From Thraustochytrium sp. TN22 (lineage: Eukaryota; Sar; Bigyra; Thraustochytrida; Thraustochytriidae), in NCBI GenBank assembly GCA_013306675.1, contig JABLUY010000100.1, forward strand, positions 55,714-119,713: DNA of 64,000 nt, written 5' to 3'. A program made the translations under genes and the position numbers. The notes under the pieces are model-generated. The model worked only from the letters and a program-made list of their open reading frames with translations, made no database searches and was not told the origin of the DNA. Positions 23,976 through 44,385 of the stretch are shown in pieces. Within the stretch, counting starts at the first letter, position 1. The number at the start of each line of letters is the position of its first letter.

Positions 23976-25179
23976 TTAGACGCGCAGGAGGTCGCGCAGG
24001 TAGGCGCGGAGGCCGCGCAGGACGCGGAGCGCGTCTTCGCGGGCGAGCTGGTCGAGGTCGAGCACCTCGAGGCGCGCGAGCAGCTGCGGCAGGGAGAGGT
24101 CGGCGAAGGCGGGCGCCCTTTCGGCGTTCCCCGGCGAGGCTTTCTCGTCGGCCTGGCGCAACAGCTCCTCGGTGCGTGCGAGAACCGTCGCTGGCACTTC
24201 GGCGAGGCGGGCGGCGTGGACCCCGTAGGAGTTGTCGGCGATGCCCTGCTCGACCTCGTACAGGTAGACGAGCTCGCGCGTGGCCGGATCCAAGGCAGAG
24301 TTCATCTTGATGAGCTCGACGCGGCGCGAGTCGGGCTCGAGCAGCGCAGGGAGCTGGTGAAAGTGCGTAGCGAATAGCGTTCGACATCCAATGTCGACGA
24401 GCGCTTCAAGCACTGCCTGCGCAATGGCGCAACCGTCGCGCGTGGAGGTGCCGCGGCCGATCTCGTCCACGATCACGAAGGAACGCGCGGTAGCGCGGCG
24501 CAAAATGGTGGCGGTCTCCTCCATCTCAACCATAAAGGTGGACCGGTCCGCGATGAGCTCGTCCGAGGCGCCGACGCGGCAGAAGAGGCGATCCACGATG
24601 CCGAGCGTGGCGGAGCGCGCGGGCACGAAAGAGCCGATCTGCGCGAGAATGACCAGATGCGCGTTCTGCCGCAGGTAGGTGCTCTTGCCACCCATGTTGG
24701 GTCCGGTGATGAGCCATAGAGCAGCCTCCTGCACGTCCCCGTCCACGTGCTTGTCCGCATCCGTGTCCGAGTCTGAGTTCGAACTTGCACTTGCACTTGC
24801 CGCGAGCGAGAGCGGATTCGGTACGAATACGCGTGGCGCGCCAGCTTGACCCTTGCTCTGCGTTTCCACCACCAGGTGGCGGCCCTGTGAGACGTGTGCG
24901 ACGGGCTCGTCCACGAGAACTGGGCGCGCCAGGTGCATATCCTCGGCGAGGATGGCGAGCCCGCACACCACGTCGATTTCCGCAAGGGCGTCCGCGACCT
25001 CGCGCACGCGGGCTGCGTCGGCGCGCAGCAGGGAGAGGAAGCGTTTGGTGAGCGCGGACTCCATTGCCTGCACGTCGTCGGCTGAGCGCAGCATGTCGGA
25101 CTCTAGCTCGACAAGCTCCGGGTGCCGATATCGCGAGCGGCCGCGCAGCTCTTGGAATTTGCGAAGCCCACCGCTGGTA

Positions 25180-25225
<46 letters not shown>

Positions 25226-27173
25226 CGGGGCCCGCCGCGAGCCCTCGTTCCAGCGCTGGCACATCTTTGGAGGGCACCTCCAGGTACAGCATGCCATTGC
25301 GGCGTGCGCCAATCTTGAGGCGTTCAATGCCAAGATCTGCACGCAGGGCAGCCTCCTTGGCGAGCACAATGCCGCGCTTGTTGGAGCGTAGCTCGCGACA
25401 GGCATCGAGGCGCGACGAGAAGCCCGGACGCACATCGCCAGGCACCAGGTTCAACCGGGTGTCCGCACCGTCGTCTTCGTCGTCATTGCCGCCGTCGTCC
25501 TCTGATGCTGTCCCGTCGCCGGCGTCGCTGGCGGCGCCGAAAACCACGGCCATGGTTTCCGTCACGACGCCGCGCCTGAGCTCGTCAAAGAGCTCAGCGG
25601 CATCGCTCTCGAGATCGCGCAGGCGGCGCAGGCTGGCGTGGATCGATGAGCGCTCGAGCGCCGCGACGTCGAGGCCTCCGCGTTCGAACTCGGCGTCGAT
25701 GATGCGGAGTAGGTCGCGCGCCAGAGCGCCGGCCTGGTCGAGCGTCTGCGCCACCACGGCGAGGTCTCGCTTGAGCCAGGTGGCGTCGAGGATGCGCTGC
25801 AGGCTGCGGTGCAGATCGGCGATCTCACGAAGGTGCTGCCGCACGACGTGGCGCGCCTCGGGGCAGTCGACGAGGAAGGCTACTGCGTCGAGGCGTGCCT
25901 CGATAGCCGCACGGTCAATCATGGGCGCCTTGAGCGCAGTGGCGAGCAGGCGCGCGCCACCGGGCGTGGCAGTGCGATCGATAGCGTGAAGGAGCGAGCC
26001 GCGCTTGCGCCCAGACGCGGCCTGAACGACCTCGAGGCTCTTGAGCGCGGCCGGGTCGATCTCGAGCGCCGTGGCACGCGCCGCAAAAAAGTCGTTGCGC
26101 TGACACGCCGACACGTGCGGCACGCTCTCGCGCAGCGCAAACTTGCCGTAATTCAGTGCGCCAGCCAGCGCGGCGCGCTCCGCCCGCGTGAGTGCATCGA
26201 TAGGCACCATGCCGAGCGCGCCGCTGGCGTCCAGGAGCTTCTCAAGCGCGCCGTTGCTGTCCTCAAAGGTGTCATCGGGCCGAAAGGTAGTGCAGCAGTT
26301 TCCAAGAGGAGGACAGCGCACGAGGTTGAGGTCGTATGGCTCGAACGATCCGAAGAACGGCTCTAGGTGTCCTTCGTCGCCGTGCGCTCTCCCGGCGCGC
26401 ACCGCCTCGTCCACGGTAAGCACCGGCAGGTCTGCGAGCGCGCGCGGAAGCACGAGCTCCTTGGCGGTGAAACGCGACAGGTTGGCGGCCAGCTCGCGCG
26501 CCGATCCAAGCGGCGCGAGCGCCACCTCGCCCGTAGAGAGGTCCATCTGCGCAAGCCCGTAGGCGGGCGCGTCCCGTGTGCCGTCCGAGGCGACGCTCAC
26601 CAGAAAGTTTGGCTCGTTGGCGTCAAGGAACTCGTCGTCCGTGACGGTTCCTGGCGTGAGCACGCGCTTGACCTCGCGCACAACAATCTCAGACTTGGCG
26701 TTCTCAGGCACCTTCTCCTTGCGGCCTTTTTCGTCCTGCTCGCAGATGGCCACGCGCACGCTCTGATCCATGAGCAGTTTCAGGTACCTGTTGAGCGCGG
26801 TGTGCGGAATGCCACACATGTACTCATCGTAGCGACGGCCCAGCGTGATCTGCAAGAGGTCCGCGACCTGCTTGGCGTCGTCGAAGAAGCTCTCGTAGAA
26901 GTCGCCCATGCGGAAGAGCACCACGTGATCCGGCAGCTCCTCTTTGAGCCTTAGGTACTGCGCCAGGATGGGCTTGGCGCCCTCGCGCAGTGCGCGCGCC
27001 TCCTTGCGCGCGCGGTCCGCGCGCGTCTCCTGCGCGCGCACCACCTGCTCCACCGGCGACGCCGCCGCGCGCCGCGCGCCGGCGGGACCAGCGCGGCCGA
27101 CGGGGACGGCGGGGCCGGCAGGGCCGCGGGCCGCCGCGGCGGCCGCCGCGGAGCGCGCCAGCCCGCGCCGCAT
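23976..27173 (-). CDS. MutS mismatch-recognition ATPase, bacterial MutS1 type, probably mitochondrial
   Basis: 1065 aa from the ATG at 27173. It resembles bacterial MutS more than eukaryotic MSH2-6. The mismatch-binding Phe-x-Glu is present in [12 protein letters not shown] (F92, E94), followed by [19 protein letters not shown] and [16 protein letters not shown]. The lever and clamp domains follow. The ATPase has Walker [10 protein letters not shown] (from about 824), the signature [12 protein letters not shown] and Walker [13 protein letters not shown] (Asp at about 903). The N-terminus ([16 protein letters not shown]) looks like an organelle-targeting leader. No C-terminal endonuclease domain is present, unlike plant MSH1. 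A poly-Ser tract at about 650-665 is encoded by a CTG/CAG microsatellite (25180-25223). It shares a 184-bp head-to-head promoter with RNF113. Function is inferred as mitochondrial DNA mismatch repair. Confidence 0.92.
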
Positions 27174-37317: not shown

Positions 37318-40300
37318 TTACAAGAGCATTCGAAAGGACCGCGAGTACCAGGCCGGCGCAGAGCGCGTCTTGGACCGCAGGCGCGGTGCGAGCACGTTTG
37401 GGTCGCGTGGGCGCAGCGTCGCTGTATACGTGCTGCCGGCTTTGAAGAGCGAGGCAGGCAGCGCGTGACAGAGCGTGGACCATTCGGTGATGCGCGAGCG
37501 CGGCTTGAGCACCTGCAGGCGCTCCATGACGAGGGGCGCGGCGCTTGGCGAGCCAGCGCCGGCGGCGCCGGCACGTACCTCGAGGTCCAGGTCCGGGTTG
37601 ACGGCGTTCTGCTGACCGCCCCAGAAGAGCCCAACTAGTTTGACGTGCGACGTATTGGTGGGAAGGTGGCGCCAGTGTTCCACGCGCGTTAGCGTGGCAG
37701 AGAGGCCTTGCTTGGCGTGCCAGCCGAGCGCCGAGGCGGAGGATGCGCTCTGCATGTGCACGCGCGTGCGGAACTCGAGCATCTGACTCGTGGGCCGCGT
37801 GCGGCGCGCGTCGACGAACTCAACCGCGCGCACCCACTTGATGCACGTGCAGCCGTACCAATTGGGCACCACCAGGCGCACGGGGAAGCCGTGGTCTGGC
37901 GGCAGGGGCTCGCCGTTGAGCTCGGTGGCAAAAAACATACCGGTCTCCTGAACCTGCGCCCACGTGAAGACCCAGCTGGCGCCCTTGGTGCCGCCTGCTG
38001 TCTTGATGTGGTCGTCGTAGCCCTCGATCAGAACGTCGCGTGGGCCGCTGGCCGGGACGAGGTCCGCCAGCAGGTCACGCAGCGGCACGCCGCGCGTCCA
38101 GTGCGCCTGCGAAAGCAGACCAAAGTGCCAGGTGCGCGTGTTTCCGGAGCACTCCATGACGCCAGCGCCCATGGGTTTGCCGGCGTCGTGAATGGCCTGC
38201 GCCGTGAGGACGCGAAGGGGGGCCGCGGCGCCGGCAGCGCGCACCTCGACCATCCAGTCCTCGCGTGAGAGCGCGTCGGGGCGAAGCGTGCCGGGCAGGC
38301 CGGTCCGGATGTAAAAGGCGGACGCCGGCGTCTCTTCCAGGAGATCGGGCGTGAGGAGCGCGAGGTCCACCGAAAGCCGCTTGGCCAGCTCGGCGCTTCG
38401 CACGACGCCGAAGGTCTTGGTGCGACCCGAGGGAAACTTTTCGGCAAAGGGAGATACGGACTCGAGATGCCATCCGCGCGCACCCGCAGAGGACAGTGCT
38501 GAGGACGAGGACGAGGACAAGGAGGAAGAGGAGGACTTGCGGCCTCCGGCCGAGGCGCGCCCGGCAATGAGGCCGTCCGGCGGACCAAAGCAAGGCTGGC
38601 CCTGGACGGGCTGGAGAAAGATAGGCCGTCGCAGGCCGAGCTCATCGTCGGCGTCCAGTTCGTCGGCCAGGTCGCCCGCAGGCGGCTCGCGCACAACGTC
38701 CTCCAGCGCAACCTCGCCAATTTTATACACTTGCGTCATCTGCCGCGCCGCCTCTGAGTGGCCCTCGTCCAAGAAGGCCTGCGTGCCGTTGTACCCGATG
38801 TAGGGCAGGATGGCCTCGACGCCGCCAGGGTGGAGGTTGAGCCACTGCGTGACATCCAGAACGTCTCGCCCCAGAACGAGCCACGCGCTGTCGGCGGTGC
38901 GGTGCAGGTCCAGATCGGCCGCCGAGATGTAGCGCGGGCCGGCGGGCGGGGCCACAGCCCCGCGCGGCCGCGCCGGCGCTTGGTTCGGCGCGCGTAGCTC
39001 GAGACTGCCTTTGGAGGTCGGCCGCGTCGTGGCGCGCTGGTTTTGCTGCACCTGGCCGGCGAGCACGAGCGCGACGCCGAGCACGAGCGCCGCGAACGCT
39101 GTCCCCCGGCGGCCGCAGCGCTGCAGGCAGGCGCGCGGCCAGGCGCGGTCCTCGGCGTAGAGCGCGGCGCGCGGCGCGAGGCTCCACAGGCCGCCCAAGC
39201 CGAAGAGCCAGGTCGCCACGAAGCGCTGCGGCACGATCAGCAGGAGCGTATTGGCAAGCGGGTCGGTCCAGCCGGACAAGAAGGCAAAGTTGCTCGCGAA
39301 GGTGGTGTGGTGCACGTTGTGGTGCGCGCGAGACAGCAGAACGAGGTCCAGGAGCGCGAAGTTGTAGGCTTCGCCCGCGTGCGAGTACCAGTGGCCGACG
39401 TAGGCGAGCGCGAAGAAGGCGCTCGCCAGGAGCGAGAAGAGCCAAAGCCGGCGCTCGCCCTGCGCGGCCGCCAGCAGCGGTATGAGCAGCCAGAACGGTG
39501 GCGCTGACAGCGACGCAGGGTTGATGTGGTGCTCCTGGAAGCTCACGGCGCTCTCGCGCAGGAGTGCCCAGCGCTGCTGCGCGGCCGGGTTGTCCAGCAC
39601 CACGTGCGAGATGGCGCTGGCCATGTCCGCCCACAGGTACGCGGTGCAGGCGGCGAGGAGCCAGCGGCGGCGCGGCGCGGCGGCGTCGCGCTCGGCGCGC
39701 GCCGCGTCATCGACCTTGACCTTGACTCGCGACACGCCGGCCGGCAGCAGCGCGAGCACGAGGCCTGGGTCTGCGCGCGCGAGCAGCACGAGCAGGCGCG
39801 CGAGGAGCAGCGCCGCGACGGCATTGAGCGTCGCGTCGACGCTTACGACGACTGCCGATGTTGGGCTGCTATTCTCCGTGGCCAGGTCCGCCGACGCGGC
39901 GCACCCCTCCTCTGCCGCCGCCGTGCAGTCGTTCGGCACGGACGGGTCCGTGAGCCCCGTCGTGCGGCGCGGGATCTCGCCTGGCGCCCACTCGCAGTGC
40001 GGGTCGCCGAGCTCCTCGCCGTTCGTGCGGCCGTCGCCGTCGGAGTCGCGCTGGCACAGGCAGTCGGCCCTGGTCGGCTCGTCGGTCAGTCAGTCTCCCC
40101 GTTCACCCCTCCCTCGCTGTCGAGCCTGCGCGCGGCCTGCCGCTGCGGCTGGCGACCTCCCTCGCTCTCGCGCGTCGCGTCCGCCACGTACCAGTCGCCC
40201 TCGCACGCGAGGAAGTCCTTGCCGAAGGCGGAGAGCGGCCCGCCGCCCAGGCCGTCCCTGTGGCCCAGCGCCGCGAACTCGCGCCCGTTCGGCACGCGCA

Positions 40301-40382
40301 GCACGAACAGGGGCAGGCCGCTCGCGCCCGCCAGCGCTGCGGCCGCCGCCGCCGCTGCGGCCGTCGCCGCCGCGCCGCGCAT
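37318..40382 (-). CDS. Four-module fusion: temptin, PEDS1/Kua lipid desaturase, cytochrome b5, sulfite-oxidase-type molybdenum domain
   Basis: 980 aa, two exons. Exon 1 (40192-40382): signal-peptide-like poly-Ala start, then the temptin pattern (VPNGREFAALGH, FGKDFL). Intron 40070-40191 (GTACGT donor, GACCAG acceptor, phase 2) restores a Trp codon and the rest of temptin (CLCQRDSDGDGRTNGEELGDP). Exon 2 is open for 917 codons. Residues of about 195-340: lipid-desaturase domain (PF10520; TMEM189/CarF) with its His set SHVVLD, FQEHHINP (244/245), GHWYSH (290/294) and HHNVHH (313-318). Residues of about 445-515: cytochrome b5 with heme ligands H477 (HPGG) and H501 (GHSEAARQM). Residues of about 600-980: sulfite-oxidase fold with the molybdenum Cys C704 (MECSGNTR), DHGFPVRLVVPNWYGCTCIKW and a dimerisation-like domain. 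Each domain is known; this order in one chain is unfamiliar to me. I infer an ER-membrane enzyme with the b5, Mo and diiron sites on the cytosolic face. Confidence 0.88.
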
Positions 40383-41829
40383 CCTCCCTCCTCGCCGCTT
40401 GCCTGTCTGCAGGCGCCTGCAGCGCCAAGCCGGAGCCGAGGACTGCGAGCTTTCGTCTCTTACTTAGCCTATGAGTACCAGTCACCCAGGCACCTGTCAT
40501 GTGTGTCATGTGTGTCACGGTCGCTGCACGTTGCCAAACGCTGTCCAGAGCTGCAAGAGAAAGGCTCCACCGTCAAGCCAACTGCGCAGCCAAGCCAACT
40601 GCCCAGCCAAGCCAAGCGAAGCTCGGGAGCGAAGACTGCGAGCGTTCGTGTCTCCACGTCGAGTCACCAAGGCGGGCACCTGTCAAAGTCGCGGCACGTT
40701 GCCAAAGAAAAAGGCTTCGAGGCCTGCTAGGCCAAATCAAGCCAAGCTCGGCCAAGTCTTGTATCAAGTGCAAGGGCATCAAGGCGAACGTGAAGCTCTT
40801 CATGGACGGCCGCACCTTCCACGACGCTGTGCTCGGGTCCGGCTTCGAGTATGGCGTGACGCCCGTGCCTTCAAACAGCAGTCGTTCGTGAATTACCAGC
40901 GCACGACGTCGGACAAGTCTTCGCACACCAAGTAGTTGCGCGACAACGTCGTGGGGGCCCCTCTCGGAGCACTTCAAGAAGAAGAGCATGCCAGTGCGCC
41001 TTACGGGCGGGCAGATTGCGGCGAAGTCTTTGTGTTTCGTCAACATCCGCGTCAAGAAGCCGCGCTTCACGCGTCAAATCTTTGTGTTCGTCAACATCCA
41101 CGTCAAGACCGCACGCTTCATGCGTCAAACCAAGGTGGAGCTCTCATCCGGGCTCCTGGAGCGCCTCAAGGATCGGCCGAGCATCAAGACGAACCCTGCG
41201 GCGCAGAGCAAGCTCAGCGCCTCGGGCAAGCGAAGCCGGACGACGGACGCGCGCTCGCCCGACACTCTCTGCCCGTGGTCCAACTCGTAACTGGTTAACT
41301 GTAAAGGCGGCTCCGCCGCGACGTCGTTGGTCCCAACGATGTGTGCATCAGCGCCCGGCGCGGTCCAGGCCGAGCGCTCCCAAGTCCCGTATCTGCTCCA
41401 TTCTCAGGCGCGGCAATCGCGGCAAGCAGCGCGGGGGCGCGCGATACGGGACTTGCGCGGCCCTCGCGCAGGCGCGGCGCGGGGCCTCGAGGCCCATGCC
41501 CGCCACGTCGATGCCCGCCACGTCGATGCCTGGCTCGGAGCTGCGCGCGCGCGAGCACGAGCGAGCAAACCCGATCGACGTCGATCGCCCTCGCCGGCCG
41601 GTCGAGGTCGGTCGTCCGAGGCCGGTCGATCGAGGTCGAGCGCCGCGGGCGCCGCGAGCGCCGCGGGCGAGCGGCTGCGCTGGCCCCGGCGGCCTGGGGC
41701 GCAGAGCGAGCGCGAGGCGGCGCGCGCGTACGAGCGCGGCGAGGCGAGGCGCGGCGGGCAAAGGGGCGAGGCAGGCACGCAGGAGCTGAGGAAGAGCGCC
41801 GGCCTGGACGCGGAGGCCGCGCTGGGAAA
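40383..41829. other. Divergent spacer between the fusion gene and UGM, with coding-like debris
   Basis: Presumably includes both promoters. Between about 40760 and 41260 there are coding-like stretches in shifting frames (separate entry). A 15-bp unit CGCCACGTCGATGCC is repeated at about 41505-41530, and AAGCCAA repeats lie at 40574-40620. Confidence 0.45.
40760..41260 (+). pseudogene. Coding-like fragments of an unrecognised protein, with a 51-bp internal repeat
   Basis: Three short stretches in different frames read like protein: CIKCKGIKANVKLFMDGRTF with HDAVLGSGFEYGVTP, then FKQQSFVNYQRTTSDK, then FKKKSMPVRLTGGQIAAKSL with LLERLKDRPSIK. Two copies of a roughly 51-bp unit (41027-41078 and 41079-41129) encode FVNIRVKKPRFTRQ and FVNIHVKTARFMRQ. 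No start, splice sites or family could be established. It could be a decayed gene or a mis-read multi-exon gene. Confidence 0.3.
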
Positions 41830-44385
41830 ATGGGCATCGAGCGGCGGTCGCGAGGCGAGAGCCACGGCGCGGCCGGGTTGAAGCTGCCGACGACGAGGGC
41901 AACGACGCCGACGCGGCGACAGGGCCTGGCGAACATGCAGCAGGTCTCGACGTCGGGGAGGGCGCCGTGGCGCGCCAAGCCGATCACGGTGATCGGGCTG
42001 ATGCTGTGCGCGGCGATCGCAGCGTGGACGCTGCGCGGGCTGGTGGACGAGAATCCGGGGGATCGCACGCCCACGACCGCCGCGACGCAGCAGCTGTCGC
42101 GGCCACGCAAATTCGTGCCAATGGAAATGTCGCTGAGCCCGGAGCACCAGAAGAGGAGCAGCGATCAGGACCTGCGCTTCAAGGCGAGTCTCGTGGAGGA
42201 GGCGAGCGTGGAGGAGCTGCCGGTGCCCTTCACACAGCGTTTCGAGGGCGCGGATGCCGACACGGTGGACCTGGCGTCCGACCAGTTTCCAGACGTGGCG
42301 CACCTGCAGGAGATGGGCGAGTACGACATCCTGATTGTGGGTGCCGGTCTGTCCGGCACTGTGCTGGCGGACATGTACGCGCGCAAGCACGGCAAGAAGG
42401 TGCTCATTCTGGAGCGGCGGCCACACATTGGAGGTAACTGCTACGACTTTCGCGAGAAGCGTACGGATATTCTGGTAAATCTGTACGGCGCGCACCTCTT
42501 TCACACGAGCAAGGAGGATGTGTGGAAGTACGTGCACCGTTTTTCGGAGTGGACGCCGTACGACCACCGCGTTGTGGGCCGTGTGGACGGCAAGCTGGTC
42601 CCCATCCCGGTGAACATCGACACGGTGAACAGTCTCCTGGGCGAGAACATCGGTTCGGTGGCGGAGATGGAGGAGTGGCTGCAGCGCGAGCGCGCCAGCA
42701 GCCCCCTGAGCGCAGAGCAGATCAACAACCCGCAGAACTCGCGGGAGGTGGGCATGGGCCGTGTGGGCGAGCGGCTGTACGAGAAGCTCTTCCGCGAGTA
42801 CACTAAGAAGCAGTGGAACGTGTACCCGGAGGACCTCGGGCCGGTGGTGCTCTCGCGCATCCCGGTGCGCGCAGACTGGGACGACCGGTACTTTCCCAAT
42901 GACCGCTTCCAGGCGCTGCCGGCGGACGGCTACACGCAGTGGTTCAAGGAGGCGCTGGACCACCCCAACATTCGCGTCTTCACATCGACGGACTACTTTT
43001 CGATGATGAAGCACGACCAGTTCAAGAAGCTAAAGTTCGAGAAGACCTTCTTCACGGGCCAGATCGACCAGTTCTTTTTGGATCGCGGCGTCGACCTCAA
43101 GCCGCTGCAGTACCGCTCCATCAAGTTCGAGACGCTCATCGTGAACGAGCCGGCCGTCTCGCAGCCGGCCTTTGTGGTGAACTTCCCGCAGTTTCGTGAT
43201 GGTTCCCACACGCGCACGGCCGAGTACAAGCACATGTATCATCAGGACTCGCAGCGGTCGATCTTGATCCGCGAGTACTCGACGGATATCAAGGACGGTG
43301 CCGAGCCGTACTACCCGTTCCCGACGGAGGAGAACCAGCGGCACTTCGACAAGTATCGCGCGCTGGCGGTGAAGGAGGAGAAGGAGAACAACGTGCACTT
43401 TGTGGGTCGTCTGGCCAACTACAAGTACTTCAACATGGACGATGCGATCCAGAACGCGCTGGACCTTTACGAGCGGCTGGAGGGCCGCACGCTCCTGGAC
43501 GAGGCGCTCCAGGAGGGCGCCAAGGCCATTCCTGCTCCGGGCAGCATGCGGGTGCACTACGTGGTCGCGCAGCGCGAGGGTGTGAGCACGTCATCCTGGG
43601 TGGGCGCGATCTGCGGGTCGGCGTCCTGGACCACGGCGGGCGCGCACACCACGGTGGAGAACAAGATCTTCATCTACAACATGGACCGCGCTCGTGATTC
43701 GAGCATTTTGAACGAGGTGCGCTCTGCGCTCAAGGCCAAGCGCTGCGCCCACGACGACCGCCTCGGCAAGGGCATCATCGTTCGCAACATCGCGCCCGCC
43801 AGCAACATCGAGCTTGTCTGGCTCGAGCACCTCTCCGCGCAGAGTTTCGCCTTTGGCGACGCCAACGTCTTTATCGATTCCGCCAGCGCCTCCGAGATGG
43901 CGCCCTCCTTGCCGGTCGCGCTCGGGCTGCAGGCCGACCGCCTCTTCGTGCGCCAGCGCACGCGGGCCGCGGACCCGGCCATTTTGGGAACCAACCTGCG
44001 CGCAGTGCCGCGCCTGCAGCCCAGCAGCGACTGGCAGCTCACCAAGCGCTTCCAGGAGATCGAGGTCGGCTCGTCCGCCGAGAACCTGTTGCACCTCCTG
44101 CCGCTTAGCGACATGCCTTTCAGCTTCTCTCAGCCTAACCTCAAGGGCGCGGATGCGGCGAAAGCACTGGGGCGCCTGTTTTCTCCCCAGGAAAGCGCTA
44201 GTCGCTGCCCGATCATGTCTACCAAGGGTTTCTCCGCCACGGACGCCATTCTGCGCCGCATGCTTTCCATCCATCGCACCACTCTTTATGACGACTTCAT
44301 CCCGAGCATGCGCAGCACACCATCGAGCGGCTTCGCGGAGGCGATGCATACCCACTGGTACTGTCTCTTCTTCTCCTTTCAGTAG
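41830..44385 (+). CDS. UDP-galactopyranose mutase, membrane-anchored, with a long C-terminal extension
   Basis: 851 aa from the ATG at 41830; the ATG at 41935 is an alternative that gives a shorter cytosolic tail. UGM is an FAD enzyme converting UDP-galactopyranose to UDP-galactofuranose. A hydrophobic segment (ITVIGLMLCAAIAAWTL) forms a type II signal anchor, suggesting the Golgi, whereas most UGMs are soluble. The core (about 166-556) is bacterial-type: DILIVGAGLSGTVLA, HIGGNCYDF, LYGAHLFHTS, YTKKQW, RIPVRADWDDRYFP, YRSIKFET, LIREYS, EPYYPFP and VGRLANYKYFNMDDAI, keeping the Arg/Tyr residues of the active site. Residues of about 565-851 form an additional domain I do not recognise, starting VHYVVAQREGVSTSSW. 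Head to head with the fusion gene. Bacterial ancestry by transfer is likely. Confidence 0.93.
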   Translation: MGIERRSRGESHGAAGLKLPTTRATTPTRRQGLANMQQVSTSGRAPWRAKPITVIGLMLCAAIAAWTLRGLVDENPGDRTPTTAATQQLSRPRKFVPMEMSLSPEHQKRSSDQDLRFKASLVEEASVEELPVPFTQRFEGADADTVDLASDQFPDVAHLQEMGEYDILIVGAGLSGTVLADMYARKHGKKVLILERRPHIGGNCYDFREKRTDILVNLYGAHLFHTSKEDVWKYVHRFSEWTPYDHRVVGRVDGKLVPIPVNIDTVNSLLGENIGSVAEMEEWLQRERASSPLSAEQINNPQNSREVGMGRVGERLYEKLFREYTKKQWNVYPEDLGPVVLSRIPVRADWDDRYFPNDRFQALPADGYTQWFKEALDHPNIRVFTSTDYFSMMKHDQFKKLKFEKTFFTGQIDQFFLDRGVDLKPLQYRSIKFETLIVNEPAVSQPAFVVNFPQFRDGSHTRTAEYKHMYHQDSQRSILIREYSTDIKDGAEPYYPFPTEENQRHFDKYRALAVKEEKENNVHFVGRLANYKYFNMDDAIQNALDLYERLEGRTLLDEALQEGAKAIPAPGSMRVHYVVAQREGVSTSSWVGAICGSASWTTAGAHTTVENKIFIYNMDRARDSSILNEVRSALKAKRCAHDDRLGKGIIVRNIAPASNIELVWLEHLSAQSFAFGDANVFIDSASASEMAPSLPVALGLQADRLFVRQRTRAADPAILGTNLRAVPRLQPSSDWQLTKRFQEIEVGSSAENLLHLLPLSDMPFSFSQPNLKGADAAKALGRLFSPQESASRCPIMSTKGFSATDAILRRMLSIHRTTLYDDFIPSMRSTPSSGFAEAMHTHWYCLFFSFQ

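Follow-up and report, generated by a model that had tools for sequence, protein, structure and literature searches.

A thraustochytrid protein that joins a Lipid_desat domain, cytochrome b5 and a molybdenum domain of sulfite-oxidase fold in one chain

In the present study, we analysed a 64,000-nucleotide stretch of the Thraustochytrium sp. TN22 genome (contig JABLUY010000100.1; hereafter the window) and found a minus-strand gene at 37318-40382, the 980-residue product of which carries a membrane desaturase domain, a cytochrome b5 (b5) domain and a molybdenum (Mo) domain. An earlier note on this DNA had proposed the chain and had read it as a self-sufficient PEDS1/Kua-type lipid desaturase. Our results confirmed that the fusion of desaturase, b5 and Mo modules in one chain is real. 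We suggest that the protein may be a single-chain membrane redox enzyme in which electrons would pass from Mo through b5 to a diiron site and drive lipid desaturation, a proposal to which we give an even chance. The architecture, its recurrence in two further proteins, the metal and haem ligands, the fold of the Mo domain and the ether-lipid genes of the genome were observed; the direction of electron flow, the two substrates and the side of the membrane are inferences. Fusions of b5 with desaturases and with Mo domains have both long been known, and passages of PMC8655872 name such fusion partners; the modules are thus familiar and the electronic circuit is unfamiliar. No description of all three in one chain was found among the papers listed by our searches of an open-licence library.

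The gene consists of exon 1 (40192-40382), a predicted intron of 122 bp (40070-40191; GTACGT...CCAG) and exon 2 (37318-40069). The splice junction was inferred from genome sequence by its GT/AG ends and by a temptin match; because this match crosses the junction, the splice is supported. Exon 1 encodes an Ala-rich signal-peptide-like N-terminus and the first half of the temptin domain, and its in-frame joining to exon 2, an open frame of 917 codons including the stop (923 from stop to stop), yields the 980-residue product with H477, H501 and C704; the 917 codons, the product and these three residues are as the earlier note had stated. We scanned this product with Pfam and counted only matches above the family cut-offs. 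Four modules were recovered, in the following order: Temptin_C (residues 22-107; E 8e-24; 84.5 bits against a cut-off of 27), whose second half, residues 65-107, lies at 39940-40068; Lipid_desat (residues 208-336; 39253-39639; E 5e-8; 33.7 bits against 26.4); Cyt-b5 (residues 447-517; 38710-38922; E 1e-13), with both haem ligands, H477 (38830-38832) and H501 (38758-38760); and Oxidored_molyb (PF00174; residues 664-820; 37801-38271; E 9e-29), with the Mo ligand C704 (38149-38151). Besides the three modules named before, the chain thus has a temptin domain and a start that resembles a signal peptide. A match to FA_hydroxylase stayed below its cut-off.

To find relatives, we searched 5.8 billion proteins and scored the 8000 candidates that shared most words with the query. 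Among these, the full-length query gave three matches at E <=1e-3. The protein of the thraustochytrid Hondaea fermentalgiana (1670 residues) has the same four modules in the same order and is 53% identical over 98% of the query. The second, a 698-residue open reading frame (ORF) from an MMETSP transcript, begins inside the desaturase, continues through b5 and Mo, and is 56% identical over 73%. The third is an ordinary b5-Mo-dimer protein (27% identity over 17% of the query). In the Hondaea protein and the MMETSP ORF, Lipid_desat scored slightly under the Pfam cut-off of 26.4 (24.6 and 23.9 bits), and the three fusions align along their whole common length. The earlier note had allowed for separate genes in relatives; in the two relatives examined, the modules are fused. 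The Hondaea model (P0001) also carries about 700 residues before temptin that have no Pfam match and may come from an adjacent gene merged with it during annotation. Third-position guanine-cytosine (GC) content was 0.76-0.97 in all segments tested, including the desaturase-b5 and b5-Mo linkers. In a simulation of 200 order-2 Markov sequences (11 kb each; model trained on window positions 30001-64000; three frames read on one strand), none had an open run of at least 917 codons, and the longest run was 708.

Membrane desaturases ordinarily depend on NAD(P)H, from which a reductase and b5 bring the electrons. The Mo centre of sulfite oxidase feeds an attached b5, and in nitrate reductase b5 feeds Mo. 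The fusion has b5 before Mo, which is the order in the genome's sulfite oxidase (L003; b5-Mo-dimer) and not in its nitrate reductase (L002), and it gave no flavin or NADH domain match by Pfam; both observations favour the path proposed here. In the first step, the Mo domain would oxidise a small substrate, for which sulfite, a strong enough reductant, is the leading guess. As happens in animal sulfite oxidase, the neighbouring b5 would then take up the electrons one by one. The b5 domain would swing on its two linkers and reduce the diiron site; with O2, this site would desaturate a lipid, for which an ether phospholipid is the leading guess. In the alignment of the three fusions, the desaturase-b5 linker is poorly conserved and the b5-Mo linker carries the conserved motif LGL.R..F.QP.QG.PCFGPP (38578-38643); this combination fits a shuttling b5. 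A b5 that serves as a wire shared by Mo and desaturase, which the earlier note had already supposed, is the most economical reading. If this b5 is indeed shared with a Mo oxidase, desaturation would be uncoupled from pyridine nucleotides and linked to the oxidation of sulfur or another substrate.

We next consider the desaturase. Of 188 bacterial genomes, 14 contained Lipid_desat genes that matched a profile of the fusions. In an alignment with 11 bacterial genes, all eight universal pfam10520 histidines are kept: H219 (39604-39606), the pair H244 and H245 in FQEHH (39526-39531), H290 and H294 in GHWYSH (39379-39393), and H314, H317 and H318 in HHNVHH (H313-H318; 39307-39324). The metal-binding histidines are kept in the relatives at every position covered. 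D223 and F241, both kept, are the equivalents of the essential Asp and Phe (human D99 and F117, which we placed on the bacterial alignment by their motif, presumably correctly). The ninth, PEDS1-specific His (CarF H113, mouse H131) is Pro in the window protein and in Hondaea, at a column that we take to be fixed by the TRHDF motif; the MMETSP row does not cover this site, and the His is kept in 11 of 14 bacterial rows. The ETNGxN stretch is also missing from the fusion desaturase. According to passages of PMC7149458, eight His are conserved throughout and one more in TMEM189 proteins only, and the eight pfam10520 His are required. Passages of PMC9131029, which are also our source for the roles of the Asp and Phe that PEDS1 is reported to need, describe the ninth His as essential for CarF function, and the mouse enzyme without it as giving a strongly reduced, not abolished, plasmalogen output; plant and alphaproteobacterial homologues, in which this His is missing, failed to complement CarF.

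On these alignments, the domain is a member of the Kua/CarF/PEDS1 superfamily. The plant branch of PF10520 is FAD4, a plastid trans-delta-3 desaturase of phosphatidylglycerol. Because the ninth His is absent, the PEDS1 identity is unproven; the PEDS1 label of the earlier note thus stands as far as the eight universal His, the Asp and the Phe are concerned, and fails at one defining residue in both rows that cover the site. A desaturase other than PEDS1 in the same chain, with the same electron path, has a little under an even chance; it would be a divergent Lipid_desat branch acting on an acyl chain, a sphingoid base or another substrate, and it overlaps with our preferred explanation in everything except the lipid. 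It is favoured by the missing ninth His and ETNGxN stretch, by the complementation failures described in PMC9131029, and by an identity of 18-27% to the 13 bacterial relatives compared. In a 17-row desaturase tree, the three fusions formed one group (100/100), which grouped with the bacterial rows L098 and L102, both without the ninth His, apart from the 12 other rows (99/99). Set against this, L097, the third bacterial row without this His, falls across the split, L097 and L098 are long branches, and the mouse His mutant of PMC9131029 is strongly weakened and not dead.

The ether-lipid genes of the genome also weigh against a substrate of another kind. AGPS is present (448 bits, E 5e-133 to 4bby), and a 1328-codon frame at G000:C407:10913-13144 (L109, L110) carries a fatty acyl-CoA reductase (FAR; NAD_binding_4, Sterile) and a dihydroxyacetone-phosphate (DHAP)/glycerol-phosphate acyltransferase, so that this FAR-DHAPAT frame joins two enzymes that start ether lipids. 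Excerpts of PMC3143110 describe a similar FAR-DHAPAT fusion in Tetrahymena. A six-frame search of the whole genome (37.9 Mb), which an intron-split gene could escape, gave one Lipid_desat match, the fusion itself. Together, AGPS, the FAR-DHAPAT frame and the single Lipid_desat match favour an ether-lipid substrate, and the protein may bear on plasmalogen production by thraustochytrids, organisms used for omega-3 oil. Two points count against an ether-lipid desaturase: the replaced ninth His, and our literature search, in which no plasmalogen report for thraustochytrids was found among the papers listed. Stand-alone relatives of the desaturase domain were absent at E 0.001 among the 8000 scored candidates, none was confirmed in viral contigs, and none was found in the PDB at E 1.

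The Mo domain was then compared with known enzymes. Its nearest relatives are not animal sulfite oxidases; they are bacterial-type proteins of 337-463 residues (550 of the 8000 candidates scored reached E 1e-3), the best 120 of which are 34-45% identical over 67-99% of the Mo plus C-terminal region. Their hosts include Acidobacteria, Myxococcota, Planctomycetes and others, and many of the proteins begin, as judged by eye, with an RR-type export sequence. The signature ECSGN / DHG.P.RL..P.W.GC / QM.E...R is common to the fusions and these proteins. In a 36-row tree (midpoint root; the L005 row very long-branched), the fusions and P0004 formed one group (100/100) among bacterial rows, and L002, L003 and P0003 formed a separate branch (99/98). 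The organism's own sulfite oxidase was accordingly rejected as the identity of the domain, since a separate copy (L003) exists in the genome and the tree sets the fusion apart; the name "Nitrate reductase NADH", given to the Hondaea protein by its source, was rejected on the same grounds, the true nitrate reductase (L002) being elsewhere. P0004 (340 residues, on a 101,875-base contig) is the closest non-fusion Mo relative among the matches listed, at 45% identity; it is the only one of 62 aligned that was seen with the Trp204 equivalent described below, and it resembles a single exon of a gene from another protist. L005 (G000:C95:22533-22985) is a short protein that carries PF00174 alone, a signal-like hydrophobic N-terminus and the motif WNCVTGWS, and it may be a further Mo-domain protein located outside the cytosol.

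A profile of L002, L003 and P0003 aligned with the fusion by hhalign over 290 columns (99.5%), dimerisation domain included. The C-terminal beta domain (residues 829-980; 37321-37776) is probably of a divergent sulfite-oxidase dimerisation type according to hhalign, AlphaFold2 (AF2) and Foldseek (chicken sulfite oxidase and SorT); it gave no Pfam match, PF03404 (Mo-co dimerisation) included. With the whole AF2 model, Foldseek returned chicken sulfite oxidase (1e-17), SorT, SorA, nitrate reductase (3e-14) and 1xdy/1xdq, which we take to be YedY (2e-7). The Mo and C-terminal part is the only confident part of the model (blocks mostly 85-98). These results indicated that the Mo domain has the sulfite-oxidase fold. 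The equivalents of sulfite oxidase Arg138, Cys185, Arg190 and Trp204 are R652, C704, R709 and W711, which the other two fusions and P0004 have as well. In the alignment with chicken sulfite oxidase, position 204 falls on W711, and R709 and W711 pair with L003. The residues compared were taken from passages of PMC5856855.

Sulfite is a plausible substrate of the Mo domain on these residues, and several observations argue against it and against the electron path as a whole. The Tyr322 position has no counterpart (a Tyr lies about 13 residues on in Hondaea and MMETSP, with Leu in the window protein), and the His140 position is Gly; four of the seven sulfite oxidase residues compared match, two do not, and the alignment at Arg450 is ambiguous. 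Among 60 counted bacterial rows, the Trp204 equivalent is absent in all, and Arg is present in 38 and absent in 22. The NCBIfam equivalog cut-offs were far from reached: 57 against 570 bits for SorT, 54 against 600 for SorA, 50 against 420 for SoxC and 28 against 207 for MsrP. The sulfite-oxidase type named in the earlier note thus holds for the fold, the Cys and the Arg138, Arg190 and Trp204 equivalents; the domain itself groups with bacterial proteins and lacks Tyr322 and His140. The AF2 blocks of desaturase and b5 (pLDDT about 33-74) are too low for distances between centres. The surroundings of bacterial Mo genes, counted in 80 of 87 confirmed loci (L014-L093), also offered no parallel, as the desaturase and b5 profiles reached best E values of 4.2 and 1.7 in their 5255 ORFs. 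HHxxHH, HPGG or Kua-like patterns lay within 6 kb in 26 of the 80 loci, and given these profile results we took them as chance matches. CxxCH ORFs lay <=1.5 kb from the Mo gene in 5 of the 80 loci, and Lipid_desat occurred anywhere in the genome in 5 of 20 genomes picked from the 80. L102, whose desaturase resembles that of the fusion, has no b5 or Mo neighbour in its region, as judged by eye.

Hydropathy analysis of the window protein predicted transmembrane segments (TM) as follows: TM1 (residues 136-163; 39772-39855), TM2, a TM3/TM4 hairpin, a TM5 region (residues 334-369; 39154-39261) and TM6 (residues 384-406; 39043-39111). AF2 places helices there at low confidence (141-163 for TM1; 334-342 and 346-369 for TM5), and TM6 was predicted by both methods. 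If TM5 spans the membrane, the crossing count places every His box on the same side as temptin, b5 and Mo. Three kinds of evidence suggest that this side is the lumen or the outside. First, the N-terminus is an Ala-rich signal-like stretch followed directly by temptin, as is also the start of L010 (temptin, copper monooxygenase, b561) in the same genome; the signal-like start was seen in the window protein, the start of the Hondaea protein being too uncertain to compare. Second, loops on the non-catalytic side carry charges of +2 and +1 (TM1-2), +3, +5 and +4 (TM5-6) and 0 (the 7-residue TM3-4 loop), and those on the catalytic side are mostly negative (-5, -9; -1, -2; -2, -2, -2; and +6, -3, -6 after TM6). 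Third, the region common to the three fusions contains exactly two N-x-S/T motifs in each, both at positions that coincide among the fusions although the middle letter varies: N491 in b5 (38782-38790; NGT, and NAT in both relatives) and N869 in the C-terminal domain (37648-37656; NTS, NAT and NST). With control motifs in the same region, two of three gave one shared site each and the third none; a third motif of the window protein, N130, has no counterpart in Hondaea.

CarF has a four-helix topology with histidines shown to be cytoplasmic, so the predicted orientation would be opposite to that of CarF. As a control, we examined bacterial CarF-like rows: the TM1-TM2 loop of 9-16 residues was readable in 10 of 11 and contained 0-1 Lys/Arg each, which agrees with cytoplasmic histidines; a crude helix caller gave at least 5 windows in 7 of 10 of these rows. 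Against the luminal side, the charge counts are small numbers from loops whose limits were set by hand, and the stretch after TM6 is positive in the window protein. We also know of no Mo enzyme of the eukaryotic secretory pathway and of no route by which its cofactor would be loaded there. A self-powered desaturase on the luminal or outer face, with the Mo domain oxidising sulfite or another extracytoplasmic substrate, is a tentative and rather doubtful proposal. If it is true, the eukaryotic secretory pathway would contain a Mo enzyme; the luminal face being out of reach of NADH-cytochrome b5 reductase, the attached Mo domain would be the sole nearby electron source.

Electrons could also run the other way, with a cytosolic NADH-b5 reductase reducing b5, which would feed both the desaturase and a Mo domain acting as a reductase. 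Nitrate reductase provides the established precedent, the source name of the Hondaea protein points in this direction, and the Mo domain is remotely related to MsrP-type reductases (28 bits). We consider this unlikely, as neither the window fusion nor the Hondaea protein gave a match to an FAD/NADH reductase domain, the true nitrate reductase is elsewhere in the genome, NCBIfam and Foldseek place the Mo domain nearer to sulfite dehydrogenases and oxidases (nitrate reductase being close behind, 3e-14 versus 1e-17), and the luminal signs would keep b5 away from NADH-b5 reductase. A chain without electron sharing, in which b5 would serve Mo only and the desaturase-like part would be a membrane anchor or have its own donor, appears quite unlikely: the poorly conserved desaturase-b5 linker beside a conserved b5-Mo motif would fit it, but mobile b5 domains commonly sit on variable tethers, and the diiron site seems to be under selection because its metal-binding His are kept wherever covered. 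Finally, although GC-rich DNA favours long frames (as the simulated 708-codon run shows) and the extra N-terminal residues of the Hondaea model may themselves come from a gene-model fusion, neighbouring genes joined by assembly or read-through are a largely refuted and very improbable explanation, separate genes or a frame artefact being rejected in view of the same order in three sequences, one of them a transcript ORF, and of the coding bias in the linkers.

Other genes were noted on the way. Beside the fusion gene, the window carries a UDP-galactopyranose mutase domain within a longer open frame (41341-44385, plus strand), and at 23976-27173 (minus strand) it encodes a homologue of MutS, in which domains I, II, III and V were recognised. 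Elsewhere in the genome, L010 and L011 (G000:C214:6454-10484) are adjoining genes that both start with a temptin domain; in L010 it is followed by a copper type II monooxygenase and cytochrome b561, and L011 is similar by eye.

Compared with known systems, the fusion shares with PEDS1/TMEM189/CarF the eight universal His, the equivalents of the essential Asp and Phe and a multi-helix membrane domain; it differs in the Pro at the ninth His, in two extra predicted helices, in the attached b5 and Mo domains and, relative to CarF, in its predicted opposite membrane orientation. With animal-type sulfite oxidase and L003, it has in common the b5-then-Mo order, the Mo Cys, the Arg138, Arg190 and Trp204 equivalents and a C-terminal fold that is probably of dimer type, whereas its Mo domain groups with another subfamily and has not kept Tyr322 and His140, its start is signal-like and not of mitochondrial type (by eye), and a membrane desaturase is attached. 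The bacterial single-domain molybdopterin oxidoreductases (P0004-P0123; L014-L093) differ from it in having neither b5 nor desaturase in the chain. Like L010 and the b5-fusion desaturases, such as Ole1, the front-end desaturases and Scs7, it would be an oxygenase fused to its electron carrier; to our knowledge, no b5-fusion desaturase with an electron-producing Mo domain is known.

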